From assembly GCF_900155385.1 (NCBI RefSeq), contig NZ_LT699746.1, positions 1-64,000 of the forward strand: a stretch of 64,000 nt of DNA, read 5' to 3'. Position numbers and translations under genes: made by a program. This DNA comes from Vreelandella massiliensis (GTDB taxonomy: Bacteria; Pseudomonadota; Gammaproteobacteria; Pseudomonadales; Halomonadaceae). Shown piece after piece: positions 5,923-48,292 of this stretch. How positions within the stretch are numbered: position 1 is the stretch's first letter; the number at the start of each line of letters is the position of its first letter. The notes beneath the pieces are model-generated. The model ran no database searches and was not told the DNA's origin. It saw nothing but the letters and a program-made list of their open reading frames with translations.

Positions 5923-6924
5923 TTACAGGTTTCGACAGCAATCTTTCCAACGCCAAATCATGTAGACGGGATCAGGCTTTTGCGGCACAAAGCGCCCTGC
6001 TCCCCATTTGAGCGGAGATTCACCAAAGGCGTGTGATTCAGACGTTTCGGGGTTGTAGTAGAAGGTGTTGAACTTGTATTGGCTTTTCGGAATCATCGGC
6101 TCGGTTTTAGGGCCGCAAACGGCTTCGCTTCCCATTGTTCTCTTGGCCAGCCCACGCCGATGCAGCGTGGCGAGCACACGCGCTTTCTGAAGGCTGGTAT
6201 TCTCGATGGTGTTGCCCGTGGTAGTGCTGCCGCTGAACGGGTACATGCTGCCCCACGACCCTGCGCACCAGAACATCTTGTCGATGGGGTTGCCCGCTGC
6301 CGACGACACGGCATCAGCGCTACACGCCAGCTGTGCGGGTAGATTCGCCACGGCAGCGGATTCGGGATAGGTAAATGAGCCCAACGTGTCATTGTTCCAG
6401 GTTGGATCAAGCTCGCTAACGAACATCAGATCGAAATCGAGATAGTTGTCTGAACACGGCATGACCGAAAAGAGATCGAGCATGGCAAACAGCGGAAAGG
6501 CGAAGTAGTGATAGTGCATGAACTGTTTTTCGACTTCGTTTGTCGACTCTCCATGCGTGCCCTGGAACTTACGGTCAAAAGGCAATCGCGTACCGCCTAA
6601 TGAGCTCATGCAGCCAGGGACGCGCTGTAACTCGACCAGACGAGCCGGTTCCCACATTGAGATCACCACGCCAGGCGTCGGAATCCCTAGCGAACCCTCG
6701 CAAAAACACAGCGGACTTGAAGCCTTGCCGGATGGAGCGCCGGAATTGCTGCCGTTTAATGGTACGCCCGCAACACGGAGCGGGAACATGCACGACCAGC
6801 AGACATTAGAGATCATGTTCGGCCCCAACACACCGGCATCGTTACAGCCAGGGCTGGCCTGTGCGTGTGCTGACAATCCCAGCCAGCAGGCAACAGCGGC
6901 GATGGCTAACTTAACCCAGCGCAT
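5923..6924 (-). CDS. traU: Conjugative DNA transfer / pilus assembly protein TraU
   Basis: A 333-residue secreted periplasmic protein of the F-type system, required for efficient DNA transfer. It has a signal peptide (MRWVKLAIAAVACWLGLSAH, cleavage near AQAS) and conserved TraU blocks: MISNVCWSCMFPLRVAGVPL, CFCEGSLGIPTPGVVISMWEP, the MHYHYFAFPLFAMLDLF segment and a Cys-rich C-terminus ending WRWKDCCRNL. Length matches the family (about 330 aa). Its start overlaps the EAL-domain gene by 14 bp, so the two are translationally linked. Confidence 0.95.
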   Translation of the reverse strand: MRWVKLAIAAVACWLGLSAHAQASPGCNDAGVLGPNMISNVCWSCMFPLRVAGVPLNGSNSGAPSGKASSPLCFCEGSLGIPTPGVVISMWEPARLVELQRVPGCMSSLGGTRLPFDRKFQGTHGESTNEVEKQFMHYHYFAFPLFAMLDLFSVMPCSDNYLDFDLMFVSELDPTWNNDTLGSFTYPESAAVANLPAQLACSADAVSSAAGNPIDKMFWCAGSWGSMYPFSGSTTTGNTIENTSLQKARVLATLHRRGLAKRTMGSEAVCGPKTEPMIPKSQYKFNTFYYNPETSESHAFGESPLKWGAGRFVPQKPDPVYMIWRWKDCCRNL

Positions 6925-7648
6925 TGCTCTCCCCTTCTTCCTGTTTCTTCGTTTCGTGATTGAGTGTCCAGGCGGTGTCTTGCATCAGCGACGGGGGTAA
7001 AACCAGCGGTCGGTGATGCCAATAGCCCTGCTGAGCGTCGAAGCCCTGACGACGGCAATGGAGGGCGTCTTGGCGAGATTCGATGTTTTCCACAATAACC
7101 AGATGATGATTGGCGAGGGCTTCGCTAAAACTTTCTTTGCGTAGCACGTCTGGATGATCCGCTTTACAAATACACCAATCGAAGCGGTTTAGCCGTTCTG
7201 GGGTGGAGCCTGCTTTACCGTAGTCATCAAGGGCGATTGAGGTGACGCTTTGGCTCAACGCTTGCCAGTGGCGCTCTATGTCGTAGTCGCAGGCTGATTC
7301 GGATACCTCGATAGTTAGGCCGCCGCTAAAGCTCTCGTCCAACTGCGTGTATAGGGGCAAAAGTGCCTGCATAGCCGCAGGATCACGTAGGGTTTCAGCG
7401 GCGATATTGATGCTGATAAAGCCGCCAAAATGATCAAAGACGCCGCGTGAATAAAGCTGTTGAACGGTTTTAGCGATGCGCTTATCTATCGCTGGCCATT
7501 GCCCCGTCAGATTCGGCTGACACGGAGCGGTAATTTCGCCGCTTGGCGTGATGATCCGCACAAAGATTTCAATACCGATGGACAGTCCTGAAAAGGTATC
7601 GACGATGTGCTGTGTAGCGATTGTCGTCCGGTACGGCAGACTAGGCAT
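6911..7648 (-). CDS. EAL-domain (cyclic-di-GMP phosphodiesterase-like) protein in the tra operon
   Basis: A 245-residue stand-alone EAL domain with no visible membrane or receiver domain, so probably cytoplasmic. Recognisable blocks in order are IEIFVRI near residue 26 (the EALLR position, with the first Glu kept), SINIAAET (Asn ligand), IEVSES (Glu ligand), ALDDYGKAGS (the DDFG motif), CKAD (the I/VKID Lys), VIVENIES and QGYWHHRP. Most metal-binding and catalytic positions are thus present despite divergence, so activity is possible but not certain. It sits inside the transfer operon between trbC-traW and traU, overlapping traU. The family hydrolyses c-di-GMP; a role in coupling transfer to second-messenger state is inference. 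Confidence 0.85.
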   Translation of the reverse strand: MPSLPYRTTIATQHIVDTFSGLSIGIEIFVRIITPSGEITAPCQPNLTGQWPAIDKRIAKTVQQLYSRGVFDHFGGFISINIAAETLRDPAAMQALLPLYTQLDESFSGGLTIEVSESACDYDIERHWQALSQSVTSIALDDYGKAGSTPERLNRFDWCICKADHPDVLRKESFSEALANHHLVIVENIESRQDALHCRRQGFDAQQGYWHHRPLVLPPSLMQDTAWTLNHETKKQEEGESNALG

Positions 7649-17721: not shown

Positions 17722-18165
17722 CTAGTCGAGCGGCTGCCCGAGCTTGCGAGGGTCGTCCTGGTTTTCGATATAGCGCAGCAGTGTCTCGATATTGGCCCGC
17801 CCGCCCACGCTAATCAGCGCGTAAGCGCGGTTCCAGAAGTACGGCTTCCAGTAATAAGGCGCCAACTCGTTGGCAAACTCTTTACGCATTCGCCGGGCGG
17901 TGACCGATTTTAGGTTTTTGACCAGATCAGATGGTTTGACCGTGGGCGGTGTCTCAAATAGTAAATGCACATGATCCGCCTCGCCGCCAAATTCAACTAG
18001 CTCGCAGTCCCACTGATGCAGCAAGTCGCGCAAGATCATTTCGATGCGGTCGAGCATGGGACCCGTCAAGCATTGATGCCGATACTTCATTGATAACACC
18101 AAATGATAATACAGCCTGTAAGCACTATGACTACGGGTTCTCAGGCTTGAAGTTTCCATTTTCAT
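17722..18165 (-). CDS. tnpA: IS200/IS605 Y1 transposase TnpA
   Basis: A 147-residue single-strand DNA transposase. The HUH metal-binding motif is DHVHLLFE (about residues 64-71) and the catalytic tyrosine is in LLRYIENQ (about 132). The N-terminus YRLYYHLVLSMKYRHQCL and the VKNLKSVTARRMRKEF and NRAYALISVGG blocks are canonical. Length is normal for the family and all key residues are present, so it is probably active and could mobilise TnpA-less relatives on the same plasmid. The ATG at 18165 is chosen after GTG context inspection. Confidence 0.95.
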   Translation of the reverse strand: MKMETSSLRTRSHSAYRLYYHLVLSMKYRHQCLTGPMLDRIEMILRDLLHQWDCELVEFGGEADHVHLLFETPPTVKPSDLVKNLKSVTARRMRKEFANELAPYYWKPYFWNRAYALISVGGRANIETLLRYIENQDDPRKLGQPLD

Positions 18166-18181
18166 CACCTACGATTTGATT

Positions 18182-19519
18182 ATGAAAACCAAGATGATAC
18201 GCACCGACAAGTGGCCGCTGCAAGCCACCCCACACCAGCAACAGTTGATGCGGAATACACGGGAGGAATACCGTGCGTTTTGTCGGGCGTTATCGGTCGT
18301 GGTGTTAAATAACTGGCCTACCTTGCAACAAGCACCCAGCTTTGCGGCAGCGGTCGAGCGGTTGATTCATCCCACCCAAAAGAACCCATCCCCTCGCCAT
18401 CACTATTTTGCTCAACGGTTCTACAAGTTCCCGTCATATCTACGCCGCGCGGCTATCGAGTTTGTGAAAGGGCAAGTGTCCAGTTATCTCACTCGCTACC
18501 GCGAATGGCAGAGCGGACAGCGAAAGCGCCGGGATGCTAATCCACCGCGTTTTAATCCGGTTGCTGGCTGCTATCCGGTGATGTATCGCGGGCAACTGGT
18601 CAAGTTTGATGCGAACTTCACCACGGCCAGCCTGAAGTTGTGGGACGGCAAGGAGTGGCTGTGGCACAACGTCTCCATCAAGGCGGTGCGCAAGCGTCAC
18701 CTTCTAGGCGCTGTGAAATCGCCCACATTGGTACTCAATCGGCACTGCCATTTGGCGGTGCCGGTGGAAATAACACCTGAACGGCTCCCCGATCAACGGC
18801 GCGTGTGCGCCGTGGATGTCGGGATCAATACGCTGGCCACGGCCAGCATCGTTTCATCCAACGGCACTGTCGCCGCGAGGCGGTTCTTCCACCCCGCAGC
18901 GGACATAGACCGTCGTGATAAACGCGCCGCGATCATTCGTGGCAAAGCGCGCAAGTCCGGCAAGCTATCAAAAGGCTTTGGTCGCCAGTGGTACCGGAAG
19001 GTGCAGCGTATTAACGACAACATGGCGCAGCAGGTATCACGCCAACTGGTAGATTTTGCCTTGGCCGCTGGCGCTGATGTCATCGTGCTGGAAGACCTGA
19101 AAGGCTGGCGCCCGAAGGCCGGTAAGAAACGTTCAGGTTTGCGCCAGCGCTTCCACCAATGGCTGCATCGGCGCCTCGCCACACTGGTCGAGCAGAAGAT
19201 GCGCGAGGCCGGTGGCAGGGTTGTTTACGTCTATGCGCGCGGCACATCATCCTGGGCGTTTGATGGCTCTGGGCGCGTAACGCGCGATAAGAAACAGTAT
19301 GAACGTGCGACGTTTCCCAACGGCAAACACTATAACGCCGATCTTAACGCCAGCTACAACATTGGTGCCCGTTACTGGGCATGGAAACACAAACTGACCC
19401 GCCGAAAGGACGGGCAGGTGTCAGGTGGCAAACGCTCCCCTGGCTCACCGAGGACGCCGGTTATTACGCTCTCCACGTTGTGGCGGAGCGATGAAGCCCC
19501 GAATCAATGCGCCGCATGA
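18182..19519 (+). CDS. tnpB: TnpB (IS605 OrfB) RNA-guided nuclease homologue lacking a zinc ribbon
   Basis: A 445-residue TnpB/OrfB. The RuvC-like acidic positions are seen in CAVDVGINTLATAS, VIVLEDLKGWRPKAG and NADLNASYNIGARY. The region where most TnpB proteins carry two CxxC pairs instead reads VYARGTSSWAFDGSGRVTRD ... FPNGKHYNADLN, without cysteine. It is about 40% longer at its N-terminal half than minimal TnpB and resembles the copy at 31333-32664. TnpB family members cut DNA guided by an RNA from the element's right end; function without the ribbon is inferred. Confidence 0.9.
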   Translation: MKTKMIRTDKWPLQATPHQQQLMRNTREEYRAFCRALSVVVLNNWPTLQQAPSFAAAVERLIHPTQKNPSPRHHYFAQRFYKFPSYLRRAAIEFVKGQVSSYLTRYREWQSGQRKRRDANPPRFNPVAGCYPVMYRGQLVKFDANFTTASLKLWDGKEWLWHNVSIKAVRKRHLLGAVKSPTLVLNRHCHLAVPVEITPERLPDQRRVCAVDVGINTLATASIVSSNGTVAARRFFHPAADIDRRDKRAAIIRGKARKSGKLSKGFGRQWYRKVQRINDNMAQQVSRQLVDFALAAGADVIVLEDLKGWRPKAGKKRSGLRQRFHQWLHRRLATLVEQKMREAGGRVVYVYARGTSSWAFDGSGRVTRDKKQYERATFPNGKHYNADLNASYNIGARYWAWKHKLTRRKDGQVSGGKRSPGSPRTPVITLSTLWRSDEAPNQCAA

Positions 19520-20465: not shown

Positions 20466-23261
20466 TTAATGGTCATCCGAAATCAAAATCGGGAGGCGGC
20501 CTTTGATCAGCTTGCCGCCGCTGATATTACCGATGAACTCCAAGTTGGGGAGCATTCCCAATAGCTGCGGTGGGAAAAGCTCGCTTTCTTCTTCCATGAG
20601 GCGTTCACCCTGGTTGCCACCATGAAGTACCGGCTCGTCACCGTGGGTATTTTGGCCCTGAGTACGCATGACGTATTGCACCCGCGTTGTGGGGAAGCCT
20701 TTGACGATATATTCCTGCGTATCGGCGTCTTTAACGCGCAGCGCCAGCGTGTTGTTGATGTTGCCAAGCACCTGAAGCGCTTTGTCCTGACTTCCCATGC
20801 GAGCGGCAAAATCAGCAAACGTCTGCGTTGCCACAAAGAGGCGGAACTTCGATCCGCGCCCCTTGTTCAGTAGCGTAATAAGAGAATCCGAAATCACTTC
20901 GGCGGCTTCATCGACAAACAGATTGACCGGCTTGTTATTGACCCCGTAGTTGTAGCGATCCCCTGCTACGGCGGTCAGATCAGCCAAGAACATCGAGCCG
21001 ATGGCGCTGGCCACGACATTATCCGTTAGAGAGTCCAGTCCAATGTACGCCACCATTGCTTCGTTGATGATCTTGCCGGTGTCCAGAATCTGACGGGTAT
21101 CGTCGATGTCTTCATAGTCAGGCGACAGCATCTTGCCCAGCTCGCCACTGGTGAGCATGTTCATAATCGGCAGGAGGTTGGCGACCATCTTGCTGAAGTG
21201 GGTGCCATCGTGCTCAAACATGGATAACAGCCCTTCCAGCTCGGTGCTGGGTTTTTCGGGCTGCACTTCTTCATAGTAAAACCGCGTCAGCATGAGAGCG
21301 CGTTGCTCAACCGTGCCTTTTTTGGCTTTATCGAGATAGGCTTTCGCCGTGGATTCCCAGCCGTCCATATTCGCGTCACAGTGCGCCGTGATGGCTTTAA
21401 TGACCAGACCAGCCGCCCCACCTTCCAGAAAGCGGCGTAGACGCACTAACGTTGGACGCTCATAGGCAATCATTAACCCTTGAGCAATGTTGTTTAGCGC
21501 TTGCCAGCCAAACGCGGTGAATGGGTCAGCGCCCGACTCCGATGGTATGAGCGCGGCGATCCGCGAGGCGATTTCCGTCACTCGCGTAAAATTGCGTAGA
21601 GGATCAATACGCACGGAGTCTTCAGGGAAGCCAGGGTGGAATGTCACCATCCTATCCGGCTGCCCTAATGCTTCACACGCCCGACGTGCATTGTCACGCA
21701 GTTCACGATCCCCTTTAGGGTCGATGATGATAACGGACTCGCCACGCAGAACCGCTTGACTGATCAATACATCGAACATCCGCGTGTTGTGCGTTGTGAT
21801 GTAGTTATCCGTGACGTAAAGATGGTCAGGATGATCAATATAAAGGCATTGAGTCTGCGTTTTGCGCGCAAACGTAATGGCTTTGACTTTGATTCGCGGC
21901 GAAAAAATGGGCGCATCCAGCAGCGGCAACGCATTAAGGGCATTCCGTAATCGAGAGGTGCTGACAAACTGGTGCAAGCGAGGATGCTGGATTGATAAAA
22001 CAGGCTGTTTCTCGTTTTCGCTGGTTGATAACCAGGCGGCACCGCCCAACGACCAAACAAGGGTTTGTGCCAGGGTGGCGACATCATCATTCTGGCAAGG
22101 CAGCCTCAACTCGCCGTTTTTGACCTGCCCTGCCGTATCGAGGATACCTGACAGCATCGCAGTGCGTTGGGCAATACTGCCTTTTAGGACGATTTCAGCA
22201 TCATCCAGCGGCCAGGGGGTGTCTTCGGGGCAACATGCCGGAAGCGGCACGCAAATTTCGGTGGTAGTGCTATCGGGTTGGTGCTCTAGGTCTGTGTGGC
22301 GCGACAACGTTTGAATGAGCTCATTATCATCGCAGTCGACCGTCAGTTGTGACCCACATTGGCTTAGGCTCGTATTCAGCATCATCAAGCTACCCACCAG
22401 ATACGGCTCCATGAGCGTATCCACGGGCATTTGTTCGACCGCCTCGGTTAGCGGAAGAAAGCATCGAGCACCGGCCACCATCCGTTTGCGCAAACAGTGG
22501 GTACTGATAATTTCTGCGTCGCCCTCGCTATCTCCATAAACAGGCCACAAGTGTTCGGCACAGGCTTGGGTGGTGCGACCATCGGCCAGGGTAATATCAA
22601 AAACAGACTTCCACCCTTGCGGATAAATCCCCGCCACGGTAGCGGTTCCCCCGCTTGGCACCGTAACGCTGTCGCCCTCTTTTACCTCCCCCATACGGCG
22701 CCAGCCTTGGAGCGTATGAACCTTGGCATCAAGCGGTTGGCATTTTCCGCTGCCGGTGGTGCCCACGATCAACGTGTGCCCTTCGGCATGTTTCAGGGGT
22801 TGATAGAGTTTTTCTTCTTTGGGTTCAACGCCATGAATCCAGGTCTGCCCAATGGGGGCTTCCGTATTTTTGGAGACGCGACGACGATCAAACTGCTCCG
22901 TAATCGACCAATCACGTTTGAGGATTTCAAAAGCCCGCTGACAATGGCGCTGCTCCCAATGAAAGCCATAACCTAGCCACATTTCATTTGTGCGCTTGGC
23001 AATGAGCTTTTGGAGTTCTGGCAGTTTGAGGAATGCAAGATCACGCCCGCCTAAGTGCTTCTGAAGACGCGAGAGCTTTACGGCTTTAGGGATATGGCGC
23101 ATTGCCATCACGCCGCAAATACCCATCATCCAGTAAAACGGCTGGGGCGGCATCGCACTCAGCATATTAACGCCATACGACACACCAGCCGCCCCCGCCC
23201 AAGACGTGCTGATGTAAAGTTCGTAGTTAGGCCGCCAGGGCATTTCGTAATTAACATCCAT
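20466..23261 (-). CDS. traD: Coupling protein TraD containing an in-frame intein
   Basis: A 931-residue precursor of the type IV coupling ATPase that hands the relaxase-DNA complex to the channel. The extein has N-terminal membrane anchoring, Walker A GTTGSGK-T (residues 167-173 plus 493), Walker B NLFVDEAAEVISD and KFRLFVATQTFADFA. Residues 174-492 are an intein inserted between the Walker A Lys and Thr; removal leaves 612 residues, the normal SXT-type TraD length. Without splicing the P-loop would be broken, so DNA transfer should depend on splicing. The start overlaps the traI stop by one base. Confidence 0.95.
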   Translation of the reverse strand: MDVNYEMPWRPNYELYISTSWAGAAGVSYGVNMLSAMPPQPFYWMMGICGVMAMRHIPKAVKLSRLQKHLGGRDLAFLKLPELQKLIAKRTNEMWLGYGFHWEQRHCQRAFEILKRDWSITEQFDRRRVSKNTEAPIGQTWIHGVEPKEEKLYQPLKHAEGHTLIVGTTGSGKCQPLDAKVHTLQGWRRMGEVKEGDSVTVPSGGTATVAGIYPQGWKSVFDITLADGRTTQACAEHLWPVYGDSEGDAEIISTHCLRKRMVAGARCFLPLTEAVEQMPVDTLMEPYLVGSLMMLNTSLSQCGSQLTVDCDDNELIQTLSRHTDLEHQPDSTTTEICVPLPACCPEDTPWPLDDAEIVLKGSIAQRTAMLSGILDTAGQVKNGELRLPCQNDDVATLAQTLVWSLGGAAWLSTSENEKQPVLSIQHPRLHQFVSTSRLRNALNALPLLDAPIFSPRIKVKAITFARKTQTQCLYIDHPDHLYVTDNYITTHNTRMFDVLISQAVLRGESVIIIDPKGDRELRDNARRACEALGQPDRMVTFHPGFPEDSVRIDPLRNFTRVTEIASRIAALIPSESGADPFTAFGWQALNNIAQGLMIAYERPTLVRLRRFLEGGAAGLVIKAITAHCDANMDGWESTAKAYLDKAKKGTVEQRALMLTRFYYEEVQPEKPSTELEGLLSMFEHDGTHFSKMVANLLPIMNMLTSGELGKMLSPDYEDIDDTRQILDTGKIINEAMVAYIGLDSLTDNVVASAIGSMFLADLTAVAGDRYNYGVNNKPVNLFVDEAAEVISDSLITLLNKGRGSKFRLFVATQTFADFAARMGSQDKALQVLGNINNTLALRVKDADTQEYIVKGFPTTRVQYVMRTQGQNTHGDEPVLHGGNQGERLMEEESELFPPQLLGMLPNLEFIGNISGGKLIKGRLPILISDDH
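21786..22742 (-). other. Intein in TraD Walker A, with degenerate LAGLIDADG endonuclease
   Basis: A 319-residue protein intron. Splicing residues are intact: Cys1 (CQPLDAKVHTL, block A), a block B with TQACAEHLWPV (His), block F HPDHLYVTDN and block G YITTHN with terminal His-Asn, followed by Thr as the +1 residue. The centre (about residues 111-260) has the spacing of a DOD homing endonuclease. However, the two LAGLIDADG helices read LVGSLMMLN and LSGILDTAG, and the catalytic acidic position is Leu in one and Ala in the other. The endonuclease is therefore probably inactive while splicing is probably retained. Confidence 0.92.
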
Positions 23262-26200
23262 TACTGATCTCCTGCTTTTTCATCGCTTGATTCGTCGATT
23301 GGCTTCACGAAGATTTGTCGATTGCGCCGCTCAATACCGTTTGCCTGTCCACTTCGCCGCATTTCTCGCTTGATAGCGGCGGGCGTCAGCGCGGGGTTTT
23401 CCTCACGAATATTCCCCAGCACGACATCGCTGATACGGCGCATATCGCCTTCGTGATGCAGCGTGGCGGTCAGCCAGCGGCCTCGCCCTCGACGCATCTG
23501 GTTGGCCAGCTCTTTCACCGCGTCTTCAGTGGTTTGAATACTGCTTGTTGGTAGGTCGTCGTCCTGCTCGTCGGTGACGGTTTCGGTTTGTTGTGCAGGC
23601 TTTGCGGTATCGGCTTTGCCAGGTGTCTGCGTGACCGCTTCATCCCGCCACCAAGACGCTTGACTGTCTTCACCAGCGGTAGCTTCATGGGAGGCTGGGG
23701 GTGTTTTAGCGCCCTTTGGCGCGGAGCTAGGCTTACTGGCCGCTTTACTCGCAGTCTTCACGGGCGCTTGGTGGTGACTGCTCTTAGACTGAGTTGCCTG
23801 ATAAGCCGCCGTTTTGCGCAGCGTTTTGATTAAACGCCTGACGGGCTTGCCATCGAGTGTTAGCCAATCAGAGGTAGTGGGTTCTGAAGACAGGAAATCC
23901 GTTTTCTGTAGCGCCAGCACAGCATTGTCATGGCTTAACCCCAGCGCTCTCGCTACGTTCGGCACGTTCACGCACACAGCGTCGTCAGTGGTGACATCCA
24001 CCCGTTCCCCCAGCGAACGTTTTTGATTGTCCAGCCCATCAAGCATCGCCTCGATCAATTCGGGATGCTGAGGCAGGCGTGGCTTGGTCTTTTTCTTAGG
24101 GGAGTTGAGGGAGCGCTTTTTAGGCGTCTGCTGCGCATGGGGTTTCTTTGCCTTGCTCGCCCGCGTCGGCATCAAGGCGTCACGGCGAGGCAGCGAGGTT
24201 TCCGTTTTCGCCGCCTCAGTCGCATCACTGCTATGCAGGTCGCGTGATTGTGTCAATGGCGAGCTACCCACCCCAGCCGCCCGTTCAGCGCTATCTTGCT
24301 TGCCAAGACGAGTCGCCAATGACGAAGAACGCCGGTTGGGCACATTGGCTTGCTTGCGTGATTTAGCGGGTTTGTTGTCCGGTTTGGCTGCCGCTGTACG
24401 CGGTGTCTTGTGGTTGCTTTCGTCACCTTCCGCACGTTTCGCCGTCGTCGCCGAGGCTTGGTCATTGTCGGCTTGGCGGGTTGATTTTGACGTTGCCTTG
24501 TCCTGGTCGCGGTCTTTGCCTGTGCTTTCGTGGCTGTGTTTCGTTGATGGCGATGGGGTATCCGCTTGCTGAGAGGCCCGTGTTGTTTCACTGGCTGCTG
24601 GATCAGCGGGCTCGTCGAATGGCTCGGACGTTTCATCGTTGTCATGCGACGGCGAAGTGGCGCGAGATAAATTTGCCATCAGCCCGCCAAGCGCGGGGGT
24701 GCTTTCGGTCGCGGGCGCTGGTGGGGCTTCCTCGTCTTCCTCGACTAATGCCGCGTATTCGTCCACGTCAGCGTCGTCTTCCATATCGAGTTCGATGCTG
24801 TCTGGTGCATCACTCTCGACTTCCGGCAGCTCCACCGCTGTCGATTCCGGTTCGTCGGAGGGTGACGTTGCCGCCGTGGGTGTAGCGGTATCCGCCTGTG
24901 GCGTTGTTGGAGTGGTATCACCTGCGTCCGATTGGGTTGGCGAATCTGAAGTCACCGCTGGGGTATTTTCAGCGTTGCCGTCACGGTGCTTCGCGGCACC
25001 TGCCTTCTTCGCCGCCTTGGTTTGGCGCTTCCGGCGGTTGGGAGTGTCATCAAGGGGTTTACCCAAAGGCCGTTTAAGCAGTTGTTGCCGTCCTGCACCC
25101 AGGGGTGAAGCCGTGGCGCTATCCGCGTCCTCTCGGCTCTCACTATCACGGGCGCTGGCATCATGCTTGTCGACTGATTCACTTTCCGTTTCGTCAGTCG
25201 ACGCTGTTGTTGCGGGTGTTTCGCTGCCCGTCTCCGGCTCTTGCGCGTCCGGCTCGCCGGACTGCTCTACTTCAGTGTCCGTGGCGTCTTGCTCACTATC
25301 GGCGGGGCGGTGAGCTTCGGTATGGCCGTTGGTTTCTTCGTCGGGCGCTTGGGCATCTTCTGTTGCCGCGCTTTCCGCATGATCATCTGACTCGGCAGTG
25401 TCCGTTTCGCCCTCGCAGGCTTGTCTGCCCTCGTCTTGGTCAGCATTTTCATCATCGGGATGCACAATCTCGATGCCATCCCAGCTAGGCGGCGGCGCCA
25501 CGCTGCTGTAAAGCAAATCGACCGGCACTTTAAGGGCGAGGAAGTCGATCTTTCCGATGCCGTTGCCTATGTTGATACCGTCAATTTTGACATGCCAATA
25601 CGGCAGCAAATCGACGCTATCGTTATCACTCACCACCCGCTGCCCCTCTGCAAGCTCCCGCTCCAACAGGATTTCGGCCAGGGATTCCGGCGATTGTGGG
25701 ATGCCTGGTATTTTGTCTTTAGCCAAGCGCTGGGTAATTTGCTTCACGGCGGGACGCCAGTTGATATAAACCCCGTCTTCCCCGATCCACAGCACGGCCC
25801 CAGCGGTATTCGCCTTCCATTCACCATCCGCTACCAGTGAGCGCATGGCACTGATGATGTAGCGCTCAGCGGCCACCCCAACGGCATGTTGATCAACGTG
25901 TCCAATATGTTGCTCTCGCAAGTCTTTTTCGACGCTGTTGCTGTCGGCCTGAATAATCAGCTTGCTTAGCGGTGTAGTGACGGAGAGCCCCGTTAGCGCG
26001 TCCATCAACGCTTCCGGCACCTCTTTCCCCGCCTCTTGCATGTACCCTTTCATATCAACGGTCATTAGCTGATACAGCGCATGAGGCGTATGACGTTCAT
26101 GCCGACCGTGACGATTGGCTGTCCAGCGCAGGTGATAGCGCTCGATCCCTAGCCGTGTCGCCCACTCGTAGATCGTGGGGTCGGTAAAGGTATTCCACTC

Positions 26201-26692
26201 ATGCTTTCCGTCTGGTGTGACAACGGTGACATCCGAGATCGGCTTACCCGCATCGTGGAACAACCCGCCCAAAAACGACGCCATACGCCAGCGCGGTTCC
26301 AGTGCTTTTGTCGCGCTTGGATATGATTGCCGCGTGAACACCACCGCTTCCGATGCCCGTGCAGCGTAAAAGCCCACTTCTAAACTGTGCCGAAACAAGC
26401 CTCCGGCACCGCGATGGTGATGGTTTTCCGACGCGGGCAGTAAGTGGACATATTCAGCAAAGCGGCTGATCACGGGCAAAACCAGCGTGTCGAACTCGTC
26501 GCCCAGCGCCAGCCCCTTGCGAATATCCGCAATCAGTGCGGATTGCGTTTCCATGATCTTGTCCGCACTCGCCACCGGCAGCCCCCGTGCAAACGGGGGA
26601 TAGCGTGGTATGTCGCTCTCGAAATCATCAATGGGGTGCGCTTTCGCCGCCGATGGCGCAAAACGCTTTAAGAGTTTGGTGACAAAGCCCAT
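23261..26692 (-). CDS. traI: MobH-family relaxase TraI
   Basis: An 1143-residue relaxase that nicks the transfer origin. The N-terminal MobH/TraI_2 domain (about 25-390) contains the His cluster ENHHHRGAGGLFRHSLEVGF (His 91-93 and 102) and the HD motif LGGLFHDAGKPISD (146-147). Residues about 420-1040 are very acidic, Ser/Thr/Pro/Ala/Gln-rich and probably disordered, broken by a winged-helix-like block near 900-960 (PRLPQHPELIEAMLDGL). A conserved C-terminal block (WLTATLHHEGDMRRISDVVL ... FVKPID) follows. It is several hundred residues longer than typical SXT TraI (716 aa) because of the disordered part. It leads the traI-traD unit. Confidence 0.9.
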   Translation of the reverse strand: MGFVTKLLKRFAPSAAKAHPIDDFESDIPRYPPFARGLPVASADKIMETQSALIADIRKGLALGDEFDTLVLPVISRFAEYVHLLPASENHHHRGAGGLFRHSLEVGFYAARASEAVVFTRQSYPSATKALEPRWRMASFLGGLFHDAGKPISDVTVVTPDGKHEWNTFTDPTIYEWATRLGIERYHLRWTANRHGRHERHTPHALYQLMTVDMKGYMQEAGKEVPEALMDALTGLSVTTPLSKLIIQADSNSVEKDLREQHIGHVDQHAVGVAAERYIISAMRSLVADGEWKANTAGAVLWIGEDGVYINWRPAVKQITQRLAKDKIPGIPQSPESLAEILLERELAEGQRVVSDNDSVDLLPYWHVKIDGINIGNGIGKIDFLALKVPVDLLYSSVAPPPSWDGIEIVHPDDENADQDEGRQACEGETDTAESDDHAESAATEDAQAPDEETNGHTEAHRPADSEQDATDTEVEQSGEPDAQEPETGSETPATTASTDETESESVDKHDASARDSESREDADSATASPLGAGRQQLLKRPLGKPLDDTPNRRKRQTKAAKKAGAAKHRDGNAENTPAVTSDSPTQSDAGDTTPTTPQADTATPTAATSPSDEPESTAVELPEVESDAPDSIELDMEDDADVDEYAALVEEDEEAPPAPATESTPALGGLMANLSRATSPSHDNDETSEPFDEPADPAASETTRASQQADTPSPSTKHSHESTGKDRDQDKATSKSTRQADNDQASATTAKRAEGDESNHKTPRTAAAKPDNKPAKSRKQANVPNRRSSSLATRLGKQDSAERAAGVGSSPLTQSRDLHSSDATEAAKTETSLPRRDALMPTRASKAKKPHAQQTPKKRSLNSPKKKTKPRLPQHPELIEAMLDGLDNQKRSLGERVDVTTDDAVCVNVPNVARALGLSHDNAVLALQKTDFLSSEPTTSDWLTLDGKPVRRLIKTLRKTAAYQATQSKSSHHQAPVKTASKAASKPSSAPKGAKTPPASHEATAGEDSQASWWRDEAVTQTPGKADTAKPAQQTETVTDEQDDDLPTSSIQTTEDAVKELANQMRRGRGRWLTATLHHEGDMRRISDVVLGNIREENPALTPAAIKREMRRSGQANGIERRNRQIFVKPIDESSDEKAGDQ

Positions 26693-31332: not shown

Positions 31333-32664
31333 TCACGCGCGCTGTTGCCAGAGCGTAGAGAGCGAGACCGGGGTTCGCGGTGTATGAGTCGACATCTGCG
31401 ATCTCATACGGGCGGTAGCCTTGCGGCCACGCCCCTGAAAAAACACATGGCCTCGGGCAGCGATGTTATAAGCAGCGTTAAGATCGGCGTGATAGCGCTT
31501 GCCAGAGCTAAACGTGCACTGGCTGTAGTTGCCCTTATCGCGCTTTACCGGCCCTGATCCGTCAAACGCTTGGCGGGACGTGCCACGGGCATAGACCGCG
31601 ACACAACGCAGCCCTATCTCGACGGCCTTGCTATGGATTCGCGCTACTAGCTGACGATGAAACCAGCGGTGAAACCGCGCCTTCATCGGTGTCCGTTTTT
31701 TACCCGCTTTAGGCCGCCAGCCCTTCAGGTTTTCTACCGCGATCGCCTGGCAACCATGGTTGAGCGCCATGTTCACCAGTTGTCGACTGATCTGGTGAGC
31801 CTGGTTATCGGCGAGACGGGTCAGCCGCTGGTGGTCGCGGCGGCAAAAGCCAGGGGGTAAGCGGCTACCGTGGCGCGTGTGCTTTTTAGCGGCCTGGCGA
31901 ATGCGGGCCATTAGTCGATACTCCCGGTCTTTATCCGTGCGCGAGATAAAGCCTCGCGCATGGACAGTGCCTTGAGCATCAACCACCGCCCAGGTGGCCG
32001 CTGTATTAATGCCTACATCCACTGCTAGCACACGATCAGGGGGAGTGGTTGATCGCTTCGGTGGCTCGAATTGCTCAGGCAACGATAGTTGCCACTGTCG
32101 TCCGTTATTGGTCAGCAGTGGCGACTTGGCCTTGCCTTTGCCTCGAAACCGGCAAGTGCCTTTCAGCCTAAACCCCATCCAAAGCCAGTCGTTGCGCTGA
32201 CGCACCTTGATAAAGGCATAGGTGGCATCGGCGTTGAGCTTGGCGCACTGCCCGCCGTAAAGGCTGGGAAAGGTCTTCGTGCTAGCTGTTAAGCGCGGAG
32301 GTTTCGCGTGCGGGTGCTTGCGCCGGCCACATCGCCACTGGTCAAATCGCGTGACGAAAGAGCGGACTTGGCCCACTGCATCCATGATTGCTACGCGGCG
32401 AAGATAGGAAGGAAATTTGTAGTAGCGGTTGGCAAAGTATGTATAGCGTACATGCGGGCGCTTGGCGGTTGAATGAATCAGCGCCTCAATTATCTTTACT
32501 GCTTCGTTTCCCTGCGAGGCCCCCACCGTCGGCCAGTGGGTATAAGCCACCGTCATCAGATCGCGCACCAGCCGCCGATACAGCGCCAGCGTATTCAGCA
32601 GTGCCTGTTGTTGTTCGGCACTGGTGACCTGAAGGGTGAGGATGTCAGAGCGGATAATCGGCAT
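31333..32664 (-). CDS. tnpB: TnpB (IS605 OrfB) homologue lacking a zinc ribbon, TnpA-less element
   Basis: A 443-residue TnpB from the ATG at 32664 (MPIIRSDILTLQVTSAEQQ). RuvC acidic positions are in VLAVDVGINTAATWA, AIAVENLKGWRPKAG and HADLNAAYNIAARG. The normal CxxC pairs are absent; the segment reads VYARGTSRQAFDGSGPVKRD. It is clearly a relative of the copy at 18182-19519 but diverged, and no tnpA accompanies it. A CAAGGC/GCCTTG hairpin at 32701-32716 marks the left end upstream. It lies at the right side of the DNA that interrupts the S49 protease gene. Confidence 0.9.
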   Translation of the reverse strand: MPIIRSDILTLQVTSAEQQQALLNTLALYRRLVRDLMTVAYTHWPTVGASQGNEAVKIIEALIHSTAKRPHVRYTYFANRYYKFPSYLRRVAIMDAVGQVRSFVTRFDQWRCGRRKHPHAKPPRLTASTKTFPSLYGGQCAKLNADATYAFIKVRQRNDWLWMGFRLKGTCRFRGKGKAKSPLLTNNGRQWQLSLPEQFEPPKRSTTPPDRVLAVDVGINTAATWAVVDAQGTVHARGFISRTDKDREYRLMARIRQAAKKHTRHGSRLPPGFCRRDHQRLTRLADNQAHQISRQLVNMALNHGCQAIAVENLKGWRPKAGKKRTPMKARFHRWFHRQLVARIHSKAVEIGLRCVAVYARGTSRQAFDGSGPVKRDKGNYSQCTFSSGKRYHADLNAAYNIAARGHVFFQGRGRKATARMRSQMSTHTPRTPVSLSTLWQQRA

Positions 32665-32769
32665 ACGGAAACTATATATCCAACCAGCAGCATAAACAAG
32701 CAAGGCTAACGCCTTGCCCCGCCTTGACTGACGATCCATTCAAAGAATCGAGTCGCAGAATGCGGCAGT

Positions 32770-39438: not shown

Positions 39439-40677
39439 CTAAAGCACTTGTGTCGTCATTTGCAGCATGGGGAGGATCGTGAGCGCGAACATAAGCAAGC
39501 CGGATGCTAGCAGGAATAGCGCACTGATCCCTTGCAATATCGGCACCAGCGACGCCATGCGTGCCGCGTATAAATCACGATATTGAGTGGAAATAGCCGC
39601 CATTGCATCGCTGACCTGTGAGCGGTCGAGTGAAGCGCCAAGCGAAGCGCGATCCGTTGCTTCCAGCGAAGTAAATTGCTCGTACCAAGGCTGGCCACGT
39701 TTAACGGCCTTGTTGGCGTCGACAAAGTTTTTTCTCAGTGCCCCGCGCTCGGTATTGTCCGCCATGAGCTCAAGCGCCCTCTCCATTGAGACGCCATTTT
39801 GAACCAACAGCGACAGCGCGTAGAAAGCGATGAAGTTTTGCCGCGCCAGCACCATTTCTTTGTAGTAAGGGATTTTCAGAATTAGGTTGTCGACGAGCAC
39901 GGGCGCGACTTTGCGGCCCACGGTGCCCATCAACACGAACACCATAAAAATGGTGAACAATACGGCCATGACATAGCCCACGCCATAGCTAAAGGTCACG
40001 GTGGTTTGCATCGTTTCATCCTGCTCTTGGCCCGCCATGCTCATTAGCGGCGAATCCAAGATATAGGGCAGAAAGCCAAAAATAGTCGCCAGGATAAAGA
40101 GCAGCGCCACGACGAAGGCCCCTGCCGCTTGCCAGATACCCCGCCCCGACTCTTTACGGACGGTGTGCATGGTGCGCTCAAAATCCATCGCATTGCGGAT
40201 GGCTTCATGGCTGGCGCCCGTATATGACCCCGCTTGGATCATCGCCACGGTGGCGGGTGGCACCACCTTGCGGCCAAGGTGCTGAAACGCATCGGTCATG
40301 TTATCGCCCAGCTCCATGCGATCCAGCAAACGTCCTGCTACCGCGCTTGGTGCGCCGGAAAACGTGGCTTTCAGCAGCCCTAGCGCCTTTCCCGCACTCA
40401 CGCCGGACGCCAGCATCGCCGCTAGGCGGGATAGAAATGCTTGGCGGTCGCCATAGGACATTCCACGCCTAAACGGTTTACTTTCCCCTTTATTAGTCAG
40501 CGAAATAATGCGGCCTAGCCGGTTTGCCCGCTTACGCGCTATTACGTCATTCGGGGCTTCGATTTGGGTTTTGCTTACCTGTTGCTTCTTGGTGGACGCG
40601 GGCTGATAACGCACCAGATATACATAGTTGGTTCTATTCCGCCCAAATGTCGTGCTGGCGGGTTGCTGTCTTTTCAT
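39439..40677 (-). CDS. pilR: Type IVb pilus inner-membrane platform protein PilR (T2SF/GspF family)
   Basis: A 412-residue protein of the GspF/PilC family that anchors pilus assembly in the inner membrane. Two GspF domains are visible: FLSRLAAMLASGVSAGKALGLL with a following membrane span (GAFVVALLFILATIFGFLPYIL), and FIAFYALSLLVQNGVSMERALELM with C-terminal ILQGISALFLLASGLLMFALTI. A third hydrophobic region is VGYVMAVLFTIFMVFVLMG. The ATG at 40677 follows GGAGGG. It is one base from overlapping the ATPase gene, with which it works. Confidence 0.88.
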   Translation of the reverse strand: MKRQQPASTTFGRNRTNYVYLVRYQPASTKKQQVSKTQIEAPNDVIARKRANRLGRIISLTNKGESKPFRRGMSYGDRQAFLSRLAAMLASGVSAGKALGLLKATFSGAPSAVAGRLLDRMELGDNMTDAFQHLGRKVVPPATVAMIQAGSYTGASHEAIRNAMDFERTMHTVRKESGRGIWQAAGAFVVALLFILATIFGFLPYILDSPLMSMAGQEQDETMQTTVTFSYGVGYVMAVLFTIFMVFVLMGTVGRKVAPVLVDNLILKIPYYKEMVLARQNFIAFYALSLLVQNGVSMERALELMADNTERGALRKNFVDANKAVKRGQPWYEQFTSLEATDRASLGASLDRSQVSDAMAAISTQYRDLYAARMASLVPILQGISALFLLASGLLMFALTILPMLQMTTQVL

Positions 40678-40678
40678 T

Positions 40679-42265
40679 TCACCCTCCATGCCCAACTTTG
40701 ACTGCTTTGAGAGAGCGCCTGTGATGCTTAACGCTCACTCGCTCGTCTTGTTGGAATTGCGCCTCGACAGCAAAACCGGCTTCGCGCAACGCTTCTTCGC
40801 CTTCTGGCCCGAAAACGCGGATAATTTCAGCCGGTGAGGTAACGCCCGCTCTCACTTTCTCGACGCCATCCTCAACCATCAGTGGCCACCAGCGCTCGCC
40901 GTTCAGAACGCGGTCAATATCGTCTTCATCGGCAAAATAGGCGCATTCCGAAACAATCGTGCGCCCACTGTATCCACTGTGCTGACAGTTGACGCAGCCG
41001 TGGCCCTCGCAGACAACGCAGTAGGTACGCACGAGGCGCTGAACCAGTATCGTGCGGAGGATATAGCGTAATTCGTGACCGGCAACGCCAAGGTCGCGCA
41101 GGCGGTTAATCGTGCCGAAAATGCTGGATGTGTGAAGCGTGGCAATCATAACGTGGCCGGTTTCCGCGCCTTTCACTGAAATCCGTGCCGTTTCTTCATC
41201 CCGCACCTCACCCGCCACGATGATGTCGGGGTCTTGGCGCATGAAGGCTTTAAGGCCACGGTTAAAGTCCAGGCTGACGGCCTCATTGACGTTCACTTGG
41301 CCGGTAAAGGGCGTTTTGTATTCCACGGGGTCTTCAATGGTGAAAACCGCACGTTCGATCCGGTCAATCTCCCTGACCGACGAGTTCAACGTTGTGGTTT
41401 TACCGGAACCCGTGGGGCCACAGATCAGGCATAGCCCACTTGAGCGGTGAACCCCTTTACGCCATTCGTTGACGTTAGTAATCCCCAAGCTACCGAGTTT
41501 GGGTTGAATCGCATCGGGATCGAGCAAGCGCACCACCACGTACTCGCCCATCGTGGCAGGTGAGGTGGCCACACGGAGGTCGATAGTTCGTTTGTGATGC
41601 TCAATAAAGAAAGAGCCGTCCTGGGGCTTTCGCCGCTCGGATAAATCCATGTTGGCGCGGTCTTTGATACGCGCAATCAAGACGTGGTATTCGTCCAGAT
41701 CGCCTTCGTGTAACCACTCCCTCACACCGTCTCGGCGCTGCAAGATGGTGTAACTCTTTTCACGCGGAATAATGTGTAAATCCGAAGCGTTATGGCTGAT
41801 GGCCTCTTTGAGAAGGGAGTCCACCAGTGTTGAGTCGGTGGTATCCGCCACCGCTGCCACGTCAGCAAGATAATCATCCAGCAGTTCAATAGAGAGCGGC
41901 ATGAACACCAGCTTGCGACTGTCGTAATACGCAAACTGCTCACGCACCAGATATTCTTCGCTGAGCGTGCCGACATAGAGGTTTTTTTCGGTTTCCGCCA
42001 TGATCACGGTTTGCGTGTCGAGAAGCAGCTGAGCCGGAATCCCAGGCACCGTGATATGCACGTCGTACAGCAATTCCTCATTGGTTTTCAAGATAATGTC
42101 GGTGAGTTCACGCTGACGAATGAAGCCGTTGCGCACTAATATGTGGGAAAAGTCTTCGTGCGTGACTTCGTGCTCTTTCAGCGCGATGTCGATAAAGCGG
42201 GTGTCGATAGCGCCCGAATTGGCCAACATCTTGACCAGGGGCGTTTCACGGGTCAGCAAGTTCAT
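40679..42265 (-). CDS. pilQ: Type IVb pilus assembly ATPase PilQ (GspE/PilB family)
   Basis: A 528-residue secretion ATPase. An N-terminal GspE-like domain (1-140) is followed by the motor: SDLHIIPREKSYTILQRRDG, Walker A GPTGSGKT (283-290), the Asp box TIEDPVEYKT, Walker B DPDIIVAGEVRDEETA and the His box ATLHTSS. A tetracysteine motif C-V-V-C and C-V-N-C (416, 419, 424, 427) binds zinc as in GspE. Length fits the R64 PilQ class (about 510 aa). AAGGAG precedes the start. Confidence 0.92.
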   Translation of the reverse strand: MNLLTRETPLVKMLANSGAIDTRFIDIALKEHEVTHEDFSHILVRNGFIRQRELTDIILKTNEELLYDVHITVPGIPAQLLLDTQTVIMAETEKNLYVGTLSEEYLVREQFAYYDSRKLVFMPLSIELLDDYLADVAAVADTTDSTLVDSLLKEAISHNASDLHIIPREKSYTILQRRDGVREWLHEGDLDEYHVLIARIKDRANMDLSERRKPQDGSFFIEHHKRTIDLRVATSPATMGEYVVVRLLDPDAIQPKLGSLGITNVNEWRKGVHRSSGLCLICGPTGSGKTTTLNSSVREIDRIERAVFTIEDPVEYKTPFTGQVNVNEAVSLDFNRGLKAFMRQDPDIIVAGEVRDEETARISVKGAETGHVMIATLHTSSIFGTINRLRDLGVAGHELRYILRTILVQRLVRTYCVVCEGHGCVNCQHSGYSGRTIVSECAYFADEDDIDRVLNGERWWPLMVEDGVEKVRAGVTSPAEIIRVFGPEGEEALREAGFAVEAQFQQDERVSVKHHRRSLKAVKVGHGG

Positions 42266-42317
42266 AATCGAGACTCCTTGGGGAAAGGCGTGATGGCGTC
42301 GTCGTGATAGCTAGTGG

Positions 42318-42728
42318 TTAAGGTGTCGCGGGGGTGCAGCACACCATTCGGGAATCCCCAGGATCGACATCGGAGCACGACGGAATAGTGCGGCTTCCCG
42401 TCGCCTTTTCGTTCATATCGTGACAAACCTTCGTGTCGCCTTCGTCGGCCAGCATTTCAATATAGCCGTCACCAACGCCCCAGCCGCCTTCAGGCCAATC
42501 CGTCAAAAATCCCGTATCCACCAGATTGTCGATGGATGTCACCGGCTCTAAATGGGTGGTGCGGTATAGGGATGCCGCCCCTGCTAGTTGTTCGGCTTCA
42601 TTATTGACTTGATTGATGCGTGCTTGGTGGGCGGAATCGGTATAGGCATCGCCGCCATAGTAGAAAGAGGCCACAGCGAGCAGCGTTACCAATGAAATCG
42701 ACATGACCGTGATAATGAGTGAAAACAT
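42318..42728 (-). CDS. Pilin-like protein without leader peptide
   Basis: A 136-residue protein with the hydrophobic helix at the extreme N-terminus (MFSLIITVMSISLVTLLAVASFYYGGDAY) and a small globular part carrying C-terminal Cys residues (KVCHDMN, IPSCSD, MVCCTPATP), a typical pilin disulfide position. An in-frame stop lies seven codons upstream and AGGAG precedes the ATG, so no leader can be missing. The helix resembles that of a mature type IV pilin except that position 5 is Ile, not Glu. It may be a pilus subunit that bypasses leader cleavage. Confidence 0.72.
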   Translation of the reverse strand: MFSLIITVMSISLVTLLAVASFYYGGDAYTDSAHQARINQVNNEAEQLAGAASLYRTTHLEPVTSIDNLVDTGFLTDWPEGGWGVGDGYIEMLADEGDTKVCHDMNEKATGSRTIPSCSDVDPGDSRMVCCTPATP

Positions 42729-42753
42729 GCCATTAGCTCCTGACAGTCAGTGA

Positions 42754-42783
42754 CAAAAACGGGGCTCAAAAGCCCCGTTTTTG
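42754..42783. terminator. Strong bidirectional terminator between two pilin-like genes
   Basis: A perfect 13-bp stem (CAAAAACGGGGCT / AGCCCCGTTTTTG) with a 4-nt loop gives T-rich tails on both strands. It follows the 42806-43231 gene on the minus strand. Termination here would give that pilin gene higher mRNA than the downstream assembly genes. Confidence 0.88.
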
Positions 42784-42805
42784 TGTTCCTTAAATCAGCC
42801 AATTA

Positions 42806-43231
42806 TTAGGTGCCACTGCCTTTTAACTGGAATTTGGAGTCAGTGCTATTGCATTCAAAGCTCGGATACGGGGCCTCACTATCACTATCATCAGGATCAC
42901 CGTCGTTGATGTAAGTACAAAGGTCTGTTTCGATGCCAGAAAGGGAAATATCACCGCTACTAATTTCCCAGTCACCCGATGCGTATTCAGAAGGATCAGG
43001 CTGAGTTTCTAGGTACTCAGTGGTTAAATCGCTTATGTCCGTTGGTGCTGACATGTTCTCAATGTGGTAAAGGTCAGCAGCACCCTTAATCTGCTGGTAT
43101 TGATTTACAAGAGCTGTTACTGATGCTTTTCCTGTGCCCTGACTAAAGGCATCACCACCGTAGTAAATCGAGGCCACGGCCAGCGCCCCCACCAGGGCAA
43201 TCGAGATAATCGTAATAATCAGTGAAAACAT
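42806..43231 (-). CDS. Pilin-like protein without leader, probable major subunit
   Basis: A 141-residue acidic protein with the N-terminal helix MFSLIITIISIALVGALAVASIYYGGDAF, then a small domain with two Cys residues (TDLCTYIN and SFECNST). It is paralogous to the 42318 protein over the first 28 residues. GAGGAA precedes the ATG and no longer reading exists. A strong terminator follows directly, suggesting it is the most abundant subunit. Confidence 0.72.
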   Translation of the reverse strand: MFSLIITIISIALVGALAVASIYYGGDAFSQGTGKASVTALVNQYQQIKGAADLYHIENMSAPTDISDLTTEYLETQPDPSEYASGDWEISSGDISLSGIETDLCTYINDGDPDDSDSEAPYPSFECNSTDSKFQLKGSGT

Positions 43232-43309
43232 ACGTGTGCTTCCTCTTTTCAGTGTTGACGGTAAATTTCATCGCTGATGGGCGATAAGTGCGCGCTGAAG
43301 TCTCTTACG

Positions 43310-43717
43310 TCATTCGCTTCCCTCCTTCCCAGCCGACTCAAGACGCATTTCCAGCCCGCCTTCGCAATCGGCCCCCATACAAAAATGCGTTAACTCGTAA
43401 CCGCTACAGGCGGCAGCGGCAGCACTGGCCAGCTCAACGGGCATTTCGGTGTCTGCGATGCCTTCCGGCGCCACCTCGACGCTATGCCTGCCATCCATAG
43501 CGGCGCTAAAACCCATGATGTCCAACTGCTTCACGCAACTATCTGCTGGGGTTTGCGGTAGCTGGGCTAATTCCTCACTCGACATGCGATTGTCGAAGTA
43601 GGCAGCGATGGTCTTCATATTTCCAGCCAGTAGAACCCCGCTGCTGATTAACATGATGCCACCAAGTACCCCCATCACTAGGCCAGCGGAGAGCTTGAAA
43701 ATTGGGTGTTTACTCAT
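43310..43717 (-). CDS. Pilus accessory membrane protein (PilP-like position)
   Basis: A 135-residue protein with one N-terminal membrane segment (LSAGLVMGVLGGIMLISSGVLLAG, about 9-32) and a periplasmic part with four Cys residues (DSCVKQL, AACSGYEL, HFCMGADCEGG). The ATG at 43717 follows GGAG and overlaps the upstream gene by 8 bp. Position after the PilO-like gene suggests a PilP analogue, but sequence similarity to PilP is not evident. Confidence 0.5.
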   Translation of the reverse strand: MSKHPIFKLSAGLVMGVLGGIMLISSGVLLAGNMKTIAAYFDNRMSSEELAQLPQTPADSCVKQLDIMGFSAAMDGRHSVEVAPEGIADTEMPVELASAAAAACSGYELTHFCMGADCEGGLEMRLESAGKEGSE

Positions 43718-44468
43718 GGATAACTGTCTCCGGCGCTTCGCAACGATCTCCCTGACAGCCAATCACGGTTGTCCACTTTAGACCGTCATAAGTCAGGGCG
43801 CGGATATACTCATACAGCCCAGGCTCACGGCGGACTTCATCGTTTTCGATGTACTGGCCTGGAATCTCGGTGTATTGCCTGCTCTGCGCCAAAGCAGCCT
43901 TTTGGTGCATATCCTCGATGGCCAAGGATTGTTCCATCGTGTCGGCATTGATCACCAAGGCTAATGTCAGCGCGAAGGTGGATGCCCCAATTAAGAAGGA
44001 GAAGCCACCGGCTATCAGCACGTTGTTAAACGAGGGGTAGAGCGAGGATGCCTTTTTACTCGGCGGCAGTTCGGTGTAATTCTGGTGTTCATCTTCGGGC
44101 AAGAGGCGATAGACAACGCGCCCGCTATTGGCCACGGATAGCTCCCCAAACCGATGCCCTGCGGGTAATACCAGTCGATCTTCGGTTGTGGCGCTTTCAA
44201 GGAAAGATAAAATGCCATCCAGGCGGCTACGGCCATCCCCGCCCAGGCAAAGCTCATAAAGCCACCCGTTTTGATAGCGTTTGAGCGCCACAAAAGCGTG
44301 TTCATTGATGTGCTCAGGGAAGTGGCGTTCGATATGGCCTTTCAAGTACGAAAACACGTCACGGCGCGACATATTTTCCAGGTGCCCAACCAATCGCAGG
44401 ATGGGCCACACGCCTTCTTTCACGCCGATAAAGTGCTTCCACTTTTTTAGGATCGTGCTGTCACTCAT
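43710..44468 (-). CDS. PilO-like inner-membrane pilus protein
   Basis: A 252-residue bitopic protein. Residues 1-145 form a cytoplasmic domain (LKRYQNGWLYELCLGGDGRSRL, RLVLPAGHRFGELSVANSGRVVYRLLP), followed by a membrane segment (NVLIAGGFSFLIGASTFALTLALVI) and a periplasmic domain with a Cys pair near the end (GCQGDRCE). Order secretin, this gene, ATPase matches PilN-PilO-PilQ of type IVb pili. The start overlaps pilN by 8 bp. Confidence 0.58.
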   Translation of the reverse strand: MSDSTILKKWKHFIGVKEGVWPILRLVGHLENMSRRDVFSYLKGHIERHFPEHINEHAFVALKRYQNGWLYELCLGGDGRSRLDGILSFLESATTEDRLVLPAGHRFGELSVANSGRVVYRLLPEDEHQNYTELPPSKKASSLYPSFNNVLIAGGFSFLIGASTFALTLALVINADTMEQSLAIEDMHQKAALAQSRQYTEIPGQYIENDEVRREPGLYEYIRALTYDGLKWTTVIGCQGDRCEAPETVIHE

Positions 44469-48160: not shown

Positions 48161-48292
48161 GGCATCGGGCTTGTTAAGCTGTATGTATATCCATAATATT
48201 CGATAAAGGGCGAAGATCAACCCCAGCAGCGCTTACGCGCTGCCCGCTTTCCTCCCCGCCCGATTGGGCGAGGGTTCTCGCGGATTTTTGCT

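Follow-up and report, generated by a model that had tools for sequence, protein, structure and literature searches.

A predicted class 3 intein with a degenerate homing endonuclease in the Walker A loop of a plasmid-encoded TraD from Vreelandella massiliensis

The stretch of DNA analysed here (the window) comprises the first 64,000 nucleotides of contig NZ_LT699746.1 of Vreelandella massiliensis. It contains traD (20466..23261, minus strand, as for all traD features below), which encodes a 931-residue SXT/IncC-type conjugative coupling protein split by an intein within its ATP-binding Walker A loop. Sequence comparison and structure prediction point to a genuine class 3 intein, well placed and probably active, whose LAGLIDADG endonuclease is dead. 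It is highly probable that this class 3 intein, which splits the TraD P-loop, splices via Cys299 and is a homing-dead relic, retained because its removal would have to be exact. The broader pattern is more interesting than the single case: class 3 inteins are found repeatedly in the ATP loops of plasmid transfer motors, at all stages of decay.

The intein and its site in TraD

The host protein is a conjugative coupling protein, as a sequence-only reading of the window had proposed. The TIGR03743 profile matches the 931-residue TraD with 684.9 bits (cut-off 366) in two stretches, the better of which covers residues 492-926, and a MobH relaxase gene (23261..26692, minus strand; NF041494, 359 bits, cut-off 200) adjoins traD, immediately 5' of it on the coding strand. 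The insert splits GTTGSGK|T precisely between Lys173 and Thr493, and TraD minus the insert has 612 residues. The N-extein (residues 1-173; 22743..23261) ends with the GTTGSGK of Walker A, Lys173 being encoded at 22743-22745. The 319-residue intein (residues 174-492; 21786..22742) follows, and the C-extein (20466..21785) begins with Thr493, which is both the +1 nucleophile and the Walker A Thr. The insertion point and coordinates given in the sequence-only reading are thus exact.

Neither Pfam nor NCBIfam recognises an intein here, even with the E-value threshold relaxed to 10; each gives one weak, non-significant match. The assignment comes instead from known structures, relatives and a structure model. 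A Hint fold is predicted, although class 1 inteins match it nearly as well, and the insert has the class 3 triplet, a terminal Thr-His-Asn and relatives in which traD is uninterrupted. The identification of the insert as an intein therefore stands.

Splicing class

Class 3 inteins share the WCT triplet, in which Trp occupies block B position 12 (B:12), Cys occupies F:4 and Thr occupies G:5 (PMC3196547). Their splicing is blocked by loss of the F:4 Cys and does not require a nucleophile at residue 1 (PMC5222942). Class 1 inteins have a block B TxxH motif, with Thr three residues before His (PMC6195587). The window intein has the complete class 3 set: Trp66 (22545..22547), Cys299 (21846..21848) and Thr317, with His64 at B:10 (22551-22553) and the terminal His-Asn (Thr317-His318-Asn319, 21786..21794). 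It departs from the class 1 motif: Cys1 is present (codon TGC, 22740..22742), but block B reads CxxH, with Cys61 at the Thr position, and the triplet is that of class 3. Tori and Perler (2011) reportedly described mixed class 3 inteins that bear a residue-1 nucleophile.

The same pattern is seen in the relatives of the window intein. A set of 112 inteins of this family was collected, which reduced to 102 after exact deduplication, the window intein included. The rows were chosen by similarity to an alignment (A1) that itself contains the window intein, and the conservation figures thus describe one family rather than all inteins; the first residues of three rows (L132, L150 and L161) are unreliable, since GK is absent before each. 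Trp, Cys and Thr are each kept in 101 of the 102 inteins, the sole exception (L156_51) lacking all three, and every member has the block B His and the terminal His-Asn. Lys directly precedes the intein in 94. Residue 1 is Ala in 61 and Cys in only two, the window intein and one from a viral locus (L095, 3001-4119) whose nuclease motifs are intact. The chromosomal DnaB of the same genome (498-4661 of locus L198, contig C1) contains two class 1-like inteins of 507 and 416 residues, in which residue 1 is Cys, F:4 is Asp and G:5 is not Thr; the alignment of the first is out of register at the N-terminus and block B. One of the two splits the P-loop between Lys and Thr, as the TraD intein does.

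Cys299, not Cys1, is likely to be the first nucleophile, because the triplet is nearly invariant in the family, Cys1 is rare, and the closest relative has Ala1. Cys1 is probably a later substitution in this lineage and dispensable, and a Cys1-to-Ala change would probably leave splicing standing. The sequence-only reading had counted Cys1 among the intact splice residues; the class 3 triplet, the Ala1 of the sister intein from Halomonas colorata and the presence of Cys1 in two of 102 relatives argue against its being needed. The other residues that it listed, the terminal His318-Asn319 and the +1 Thr493, are intact. The analysis shifts the cysteine of interest from Cys1 to Cys299.

A dead endonuclease in a retained fold

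The degenerate LAGLIDADG region spans approximately residues 100-272 of the intein (21927..22445). Active enzymes end both motifs with an acid. The first motif, LVGSLMMLN (22374..22400), has lost it, and the second, LSGILDTAG (22128..22154), has Ala where the acid is expected. Among the 86 family inteins of at least 300 residues, Asp is present at the first motif in 79 and at the second in 79; the acid is missing from both in five, namely the window intein, its sister and three viral inteins (L132, L150 and L164). The earlier claim that the nuclease is dead holds, and the window intein presumably no longer homes. The insert is also short, at 319 residues compared to 330-376 in 73 of the 77 family inteins with both acids. 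The predicted structure (predicted local distance difference test score 91; structure alignment of the window with 53 rows) nonetheless keeps a complete intein and endonuclease fold.

The closest relative, in the TraD of a congeneric genome (G582, L048), is identical in sequence to the intein of H. colorata FME66 (L091). This sister intein has Ala1 with the same WCT triplet, and its LAGLIDADG motifs are also acid-less (LVGNLLGIAG and LSGWLDTAA). Given that both have lost the acids, a single loss before the two lineages split fits the data, although the motifs are not spelled alike and independent losses may have occurred. The exteins of the pair are 91-92% identical, the inteins 47% and the middle of the inteins 41%. 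The proportion of synonymous differences (pS) is 0.70-0.95 throughout (0.70-0.79 in the exteins, 0.76 in the intein) and thus saturated, leaving most estimates of dN/dS undefined, whereas the nonsynonymous proportion (pN) is 0.055-0.065 in the exteins and 0.36 in the intein. The exteins look constrained between the two lineages. The intein has thus stayed in frame and kept its splice residues over an extended period, to all appearances with no functional nuclease.

Proposed mechanism and alternatives

Sequences and the model show the site, the triplet, the Hint fold, the Thr-His-Asn, the +1 Thr, the lost acids and the empty relatives; the splicing chemistry, the dependence of transfer on splicing and the cause of retention are inferred. 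The 931-residue precursor, with Walker A split, would have no normal P-loop or ATP binding. Cys299 would attack the Lys173-Cys174 bond (Cys174 being Cys1 of the intein) to give a branched intermediate at block F, and the N-extein would be handed to Thr493, itself the Walker A Thr. Cyclization of Asn492 would then join the exteins into the 612-residue TraD with GTTGSGKT restored. Since the precursor P-loop could not bind ATP normally, transfer should depend on splicing. An intein that no longer homes may be retained because only a precise deletion that keeps the frame, within a loop that a transfer gene cannot do without, would remove it. The sequence-only reading had left decay and a switch on transfer as options; decay is the simpler.

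A switch on conjugation, in which unspliced TraD is held until redox, metal or DNA cues, is unlikely. Its model would be the DnaBi1 intein of Mycobacterium smegmatis, of the same class and at the same kind of site, whose splicing is inhibited by H2O2, with an intra-intein disulfide trap (PMC6195587), and by zinc (PMC7360933). Cys1, Cys61 and Cys299 of the window intein could conceivably form a disulfide. However, no sequence feature demands a switch, Cys1 is not shared with the sister, homing-dead inteins can persist without function, and occurrence is patchy, with two of 14 motif-fitting TraD loci occupied. An extended version is quite doubtful: class 3 inteins would pass recurrently from phage to plasmid at Walker A, and the copy of the Halomonas lineage, free of homing, would now be a post-translational gate on transfer. 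In this version Cys1 or Cys61 would pair with Cys299 to hold TraD unspliced under oxidation, and the non-cutting LAGLIDADG fold would sense DNA. The literature has a precedent for regulation in a group II intron by which a conjugative relaxase is held in check (PMC6003770).

It is improbable that the insert splices as a class 1 intein, with Cys1 forming the first thioester and the triplet a relic. Cys1 is present, and the Ala and Cys codons (the window uses TGC, the sister GCA) are at least two base changes apart, so that Cys1 may have been selected. Yet the sister has Ala1, Cys1 is absent from 100 of 102 family members while the triplet is kept in 101, and Cys61 stands where class 1 inteins have the Thr of TxxH (PMC6195587). 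A non-splicing insert that leaves TraD an inactive pseudogene is very improbable; decay of the endonuclease part and the shortness of the insert speak for it, but all splice residues are kept, the frame is open despite saturated synonymous divergence, the exteins are constrained and the surrounding transfer genes are retained. A permanent extra domain, suggested by the confidently predicted fold of the dead endonuclease, can be dismissed as extremely improbable, since it would part the Walker A Lys from Thr and since the removal residues are kept and exact empty alleles exist. The preferred reading remains a class 3 intein that splices through Cys299.

Occupied and empty traD on IncC plasmids

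Searching plasmid records with the precursor (tblastn) gave 3,548 with a TraD-like match, of which six cover at least 80% and so contain the insert. A DNA search for near matches to the intein of plasmid pKAZ5 returned the same six records, all at 100.0% identity; five match over the whole 1107 bases, and the best match in an Escherichia coli record spans 66%. Three of the six were inspected, and all are typed IncC by PLSDB. The intein of these plasmids (pKAZ5, pTMSNI47-1 and four further records) has 369 residues, Ala1 and intact LAGLIDADG motifs, and occupies the Lys|Thr joint. In the E. coli IncC plasmid p1902-010-1, an IS3-family transposase gene lies inside the traD intein (L006, 1964-3177). 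The pKAZ5 traD C-extein has matches in 970 plasmid records, 966 of them with at least 80% coverage. The corresponding DNA search of plasmids with the window traD gave no match.

IncC plasmids also have exactly empty traD alleles (pAM04528 and pSCEC2). The traD genes of pKAZ5 and pTMSNI47-1 differ at 19 positions, none inside the intein. The two occupied genes were compared with the two empty ones in four comparisons. For pTMSNI47-1 against pSCEC2, the first 600 bases past the joint hold 14 differences and the following 711 hold one; against pAM04528 the corresponding counts are 21 and seven. No such drop is seen between pKAZ5 and pSCEC2 (14 differences, then 19), because pKAZ5 bears its own cluster of differences further on. 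No conversion tract is evident on the N side of the joint in the occupied-empty comparisons. These figures are no more than suggestive of a stretch carried in with the IncC intein, as there are two plasmids of each kind and pKAZ5 does not fit.

Wider occurrence and origin

A search of genome contigs for the pattern GTTGxGK-x-QP gave 16 stretches, 10 of them genuine; the other six (L078, L082, L084, L085, L086 and L090) are chance matches. The genuine matches include the TraD of H. colorata, the TraD of Shewanella profunda, whose intein protein is the same as that of IncC plasmids at the same joint, and the TraD of a metagenomic proteobacterium with a 160-residue mini-intein at that joint. The others are TrbC/DotL-like proteins of five Pseudomonas (mini-inteins with Pro1), Massilia and Salipiger. 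Plasmid records of Methylorubrum, Xanthomonas and P. syringae also have an intein in TrbC/DotL-like proteins. In TraD and in the TrbC/DotL-like proteins alike, these class 3 inteins occupy the Lys|Thr(Ser) joint. When six hosts were scanned with NCBIfam, the metagenomic one was above the cut-off for SXT_TraD and five matched TrbC_conju below its cut-off.

The insert matches 468 of 50,697 records of a phage collection at E 0.01 or better, and helicases and terminases are among the 30 of these matches listed. Two class 3 family inteins occur in one viral protein of L112 (3001-4035 and 5074-6171), and L139 and L167 have two each.

In the taxonomic family of the window's host, 52 of 275 genomes have a TraD-like match, which extends through the insert only in the window and G582. 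A search with the intein alignment matched 46 of the 275, 43 partially and three over the whole model; these three genomes have a full-length family intein, the third in a DnaB. Among 58 TraD loci examined, 14 fit the motif and two of these have the intein. In a survey of 390 genomes of the order, 57 have a TraD-like match and only the window matches the full precursor, part of the weak matches having been inspected. One genome (G226) weakly matches residues 105-319.

Two trees, the first without the rows from L132, L150 and L161 and the second with 39 of the 102 inteins, separate the TraD inteins. The IncC intein groups with one or two TrbC inteins, away from the window pair, and the Salipiger TrbC intein joins that pair in one tree only. 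A single clade of TraD inteins is not rejected by the approximately unbiased test (p 0.39 with three rows, 0.20 with four). Neither a single nor a repeated origin is claimed, because the trees split the TraD inteins while the test rejects no single clade.

Relation to known inteins

The IncC TraD intein shares its gene, the Lys|Thr joint and the WCT triplet with the window intein, but has 369 residues, Ala1 and both LAGLIDADG acids, and is 30% identical; the N- and C-exteins are 64% and 75% identical. PI-SceI, the intein of the yeast V-ATPase, differs from the window intein in its host and in having an active endonuclease. DnaBi1 of M. smegmatis (structure 6bs8) is, like the window intein, class 3 and in a P-loop, that of DnaB, but is a 139-residue mini-intein with Ala1, a +1 Ser, DxxH instead of CxxH in block B, and a replicative helicase as host. 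The mycobacteriophage TerL1-a inteins lie between the invariant Lys and Thr of the P-loop, termed a classic site (PMC5050341), in a phage terminase.

The sequence-only reading had called an intein in a mobile coupling protein unusual. This is only partly right, since class 3 inteins are present at this joint in coupling proteins from two families or more and the plasmid-borne IcmO intein of Burkholderia vietnamiensis, with demonstrated splicing, is already in print (PMC5222942). That class 3 intein differs from the window intein in being a 142-residue mini-intein with Cys+1 at ARSLGF|CITFA, outside Walker A; the same source calls the function of IcmO not established. The ARSLGF-type motif of the IcmO site also occurs downstream in a TrbC/DotL-like protein (AQARSLGF, L046). 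We take IcmO to be a DotL-type coupling protein.

Among the matches listed in literature searches, whose coverage excludes most subscription journals, there was no report of a TraD intein or of class 3 inteins recurring in transfer-motor ATP loops; intein mentions in PMC4605294 and PMC12024412 are unrelated to the TraD intein. At one codon joint of one conjugation gene family, the nuclease motifs may be intact, the nuclease dead, the nuclease deleted or the site empty. With four life stages at a single joint, one host protein allows a comparison of homing, decay and possible take-over. Because coupling proteins must hydrolyse ATP for transfer, plasmid spread would be tied to protein splicing, and the IncC cases lie on clinically important plasmids.

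The plasmid and its transfer region

The 164,040-bp contig ends with the same 127 bases with which it begins and is therefore probably a circular plasmid of 163,913 bp. Downstream of traD, the window encodes TraL, TraE, TraK, TraB, TraC, TraU, TraN and an F-type TrbC; TraW was not found among the open reading frames (ORFs) scanned. Beyond the window the contig has a TraF-like gene that passes its cut-off and TraH- and TraG-like genes that score far below theirs, and it also encodes a topoisomerase III and a ParM/PRTRC-D-like protein. The MobH relaxase has 1143 residues, with a long Asp/Glu/Ser/Thr-rich stretch past the recognised domain. An IS200-like transposase gene (minus strand) and a TnpB-like gene (plus strand) lie within the transfer region at 17722-19519, between TraL and an 86-residue ORF, and further TnpB-like genes are located at 31336-32739, 47018-48220 and 49745-50902. 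Between TraU and the F-type TrbC, the transfer operon encodes an EAL-domain protein (E 6e-13; 6914-7648). The same plasmid has a set of genes resembling type II secretion or type IV pilus systems (T2SSF, T2SSE and secretin; 39442-46140), perhaps for a thin mating pilus.
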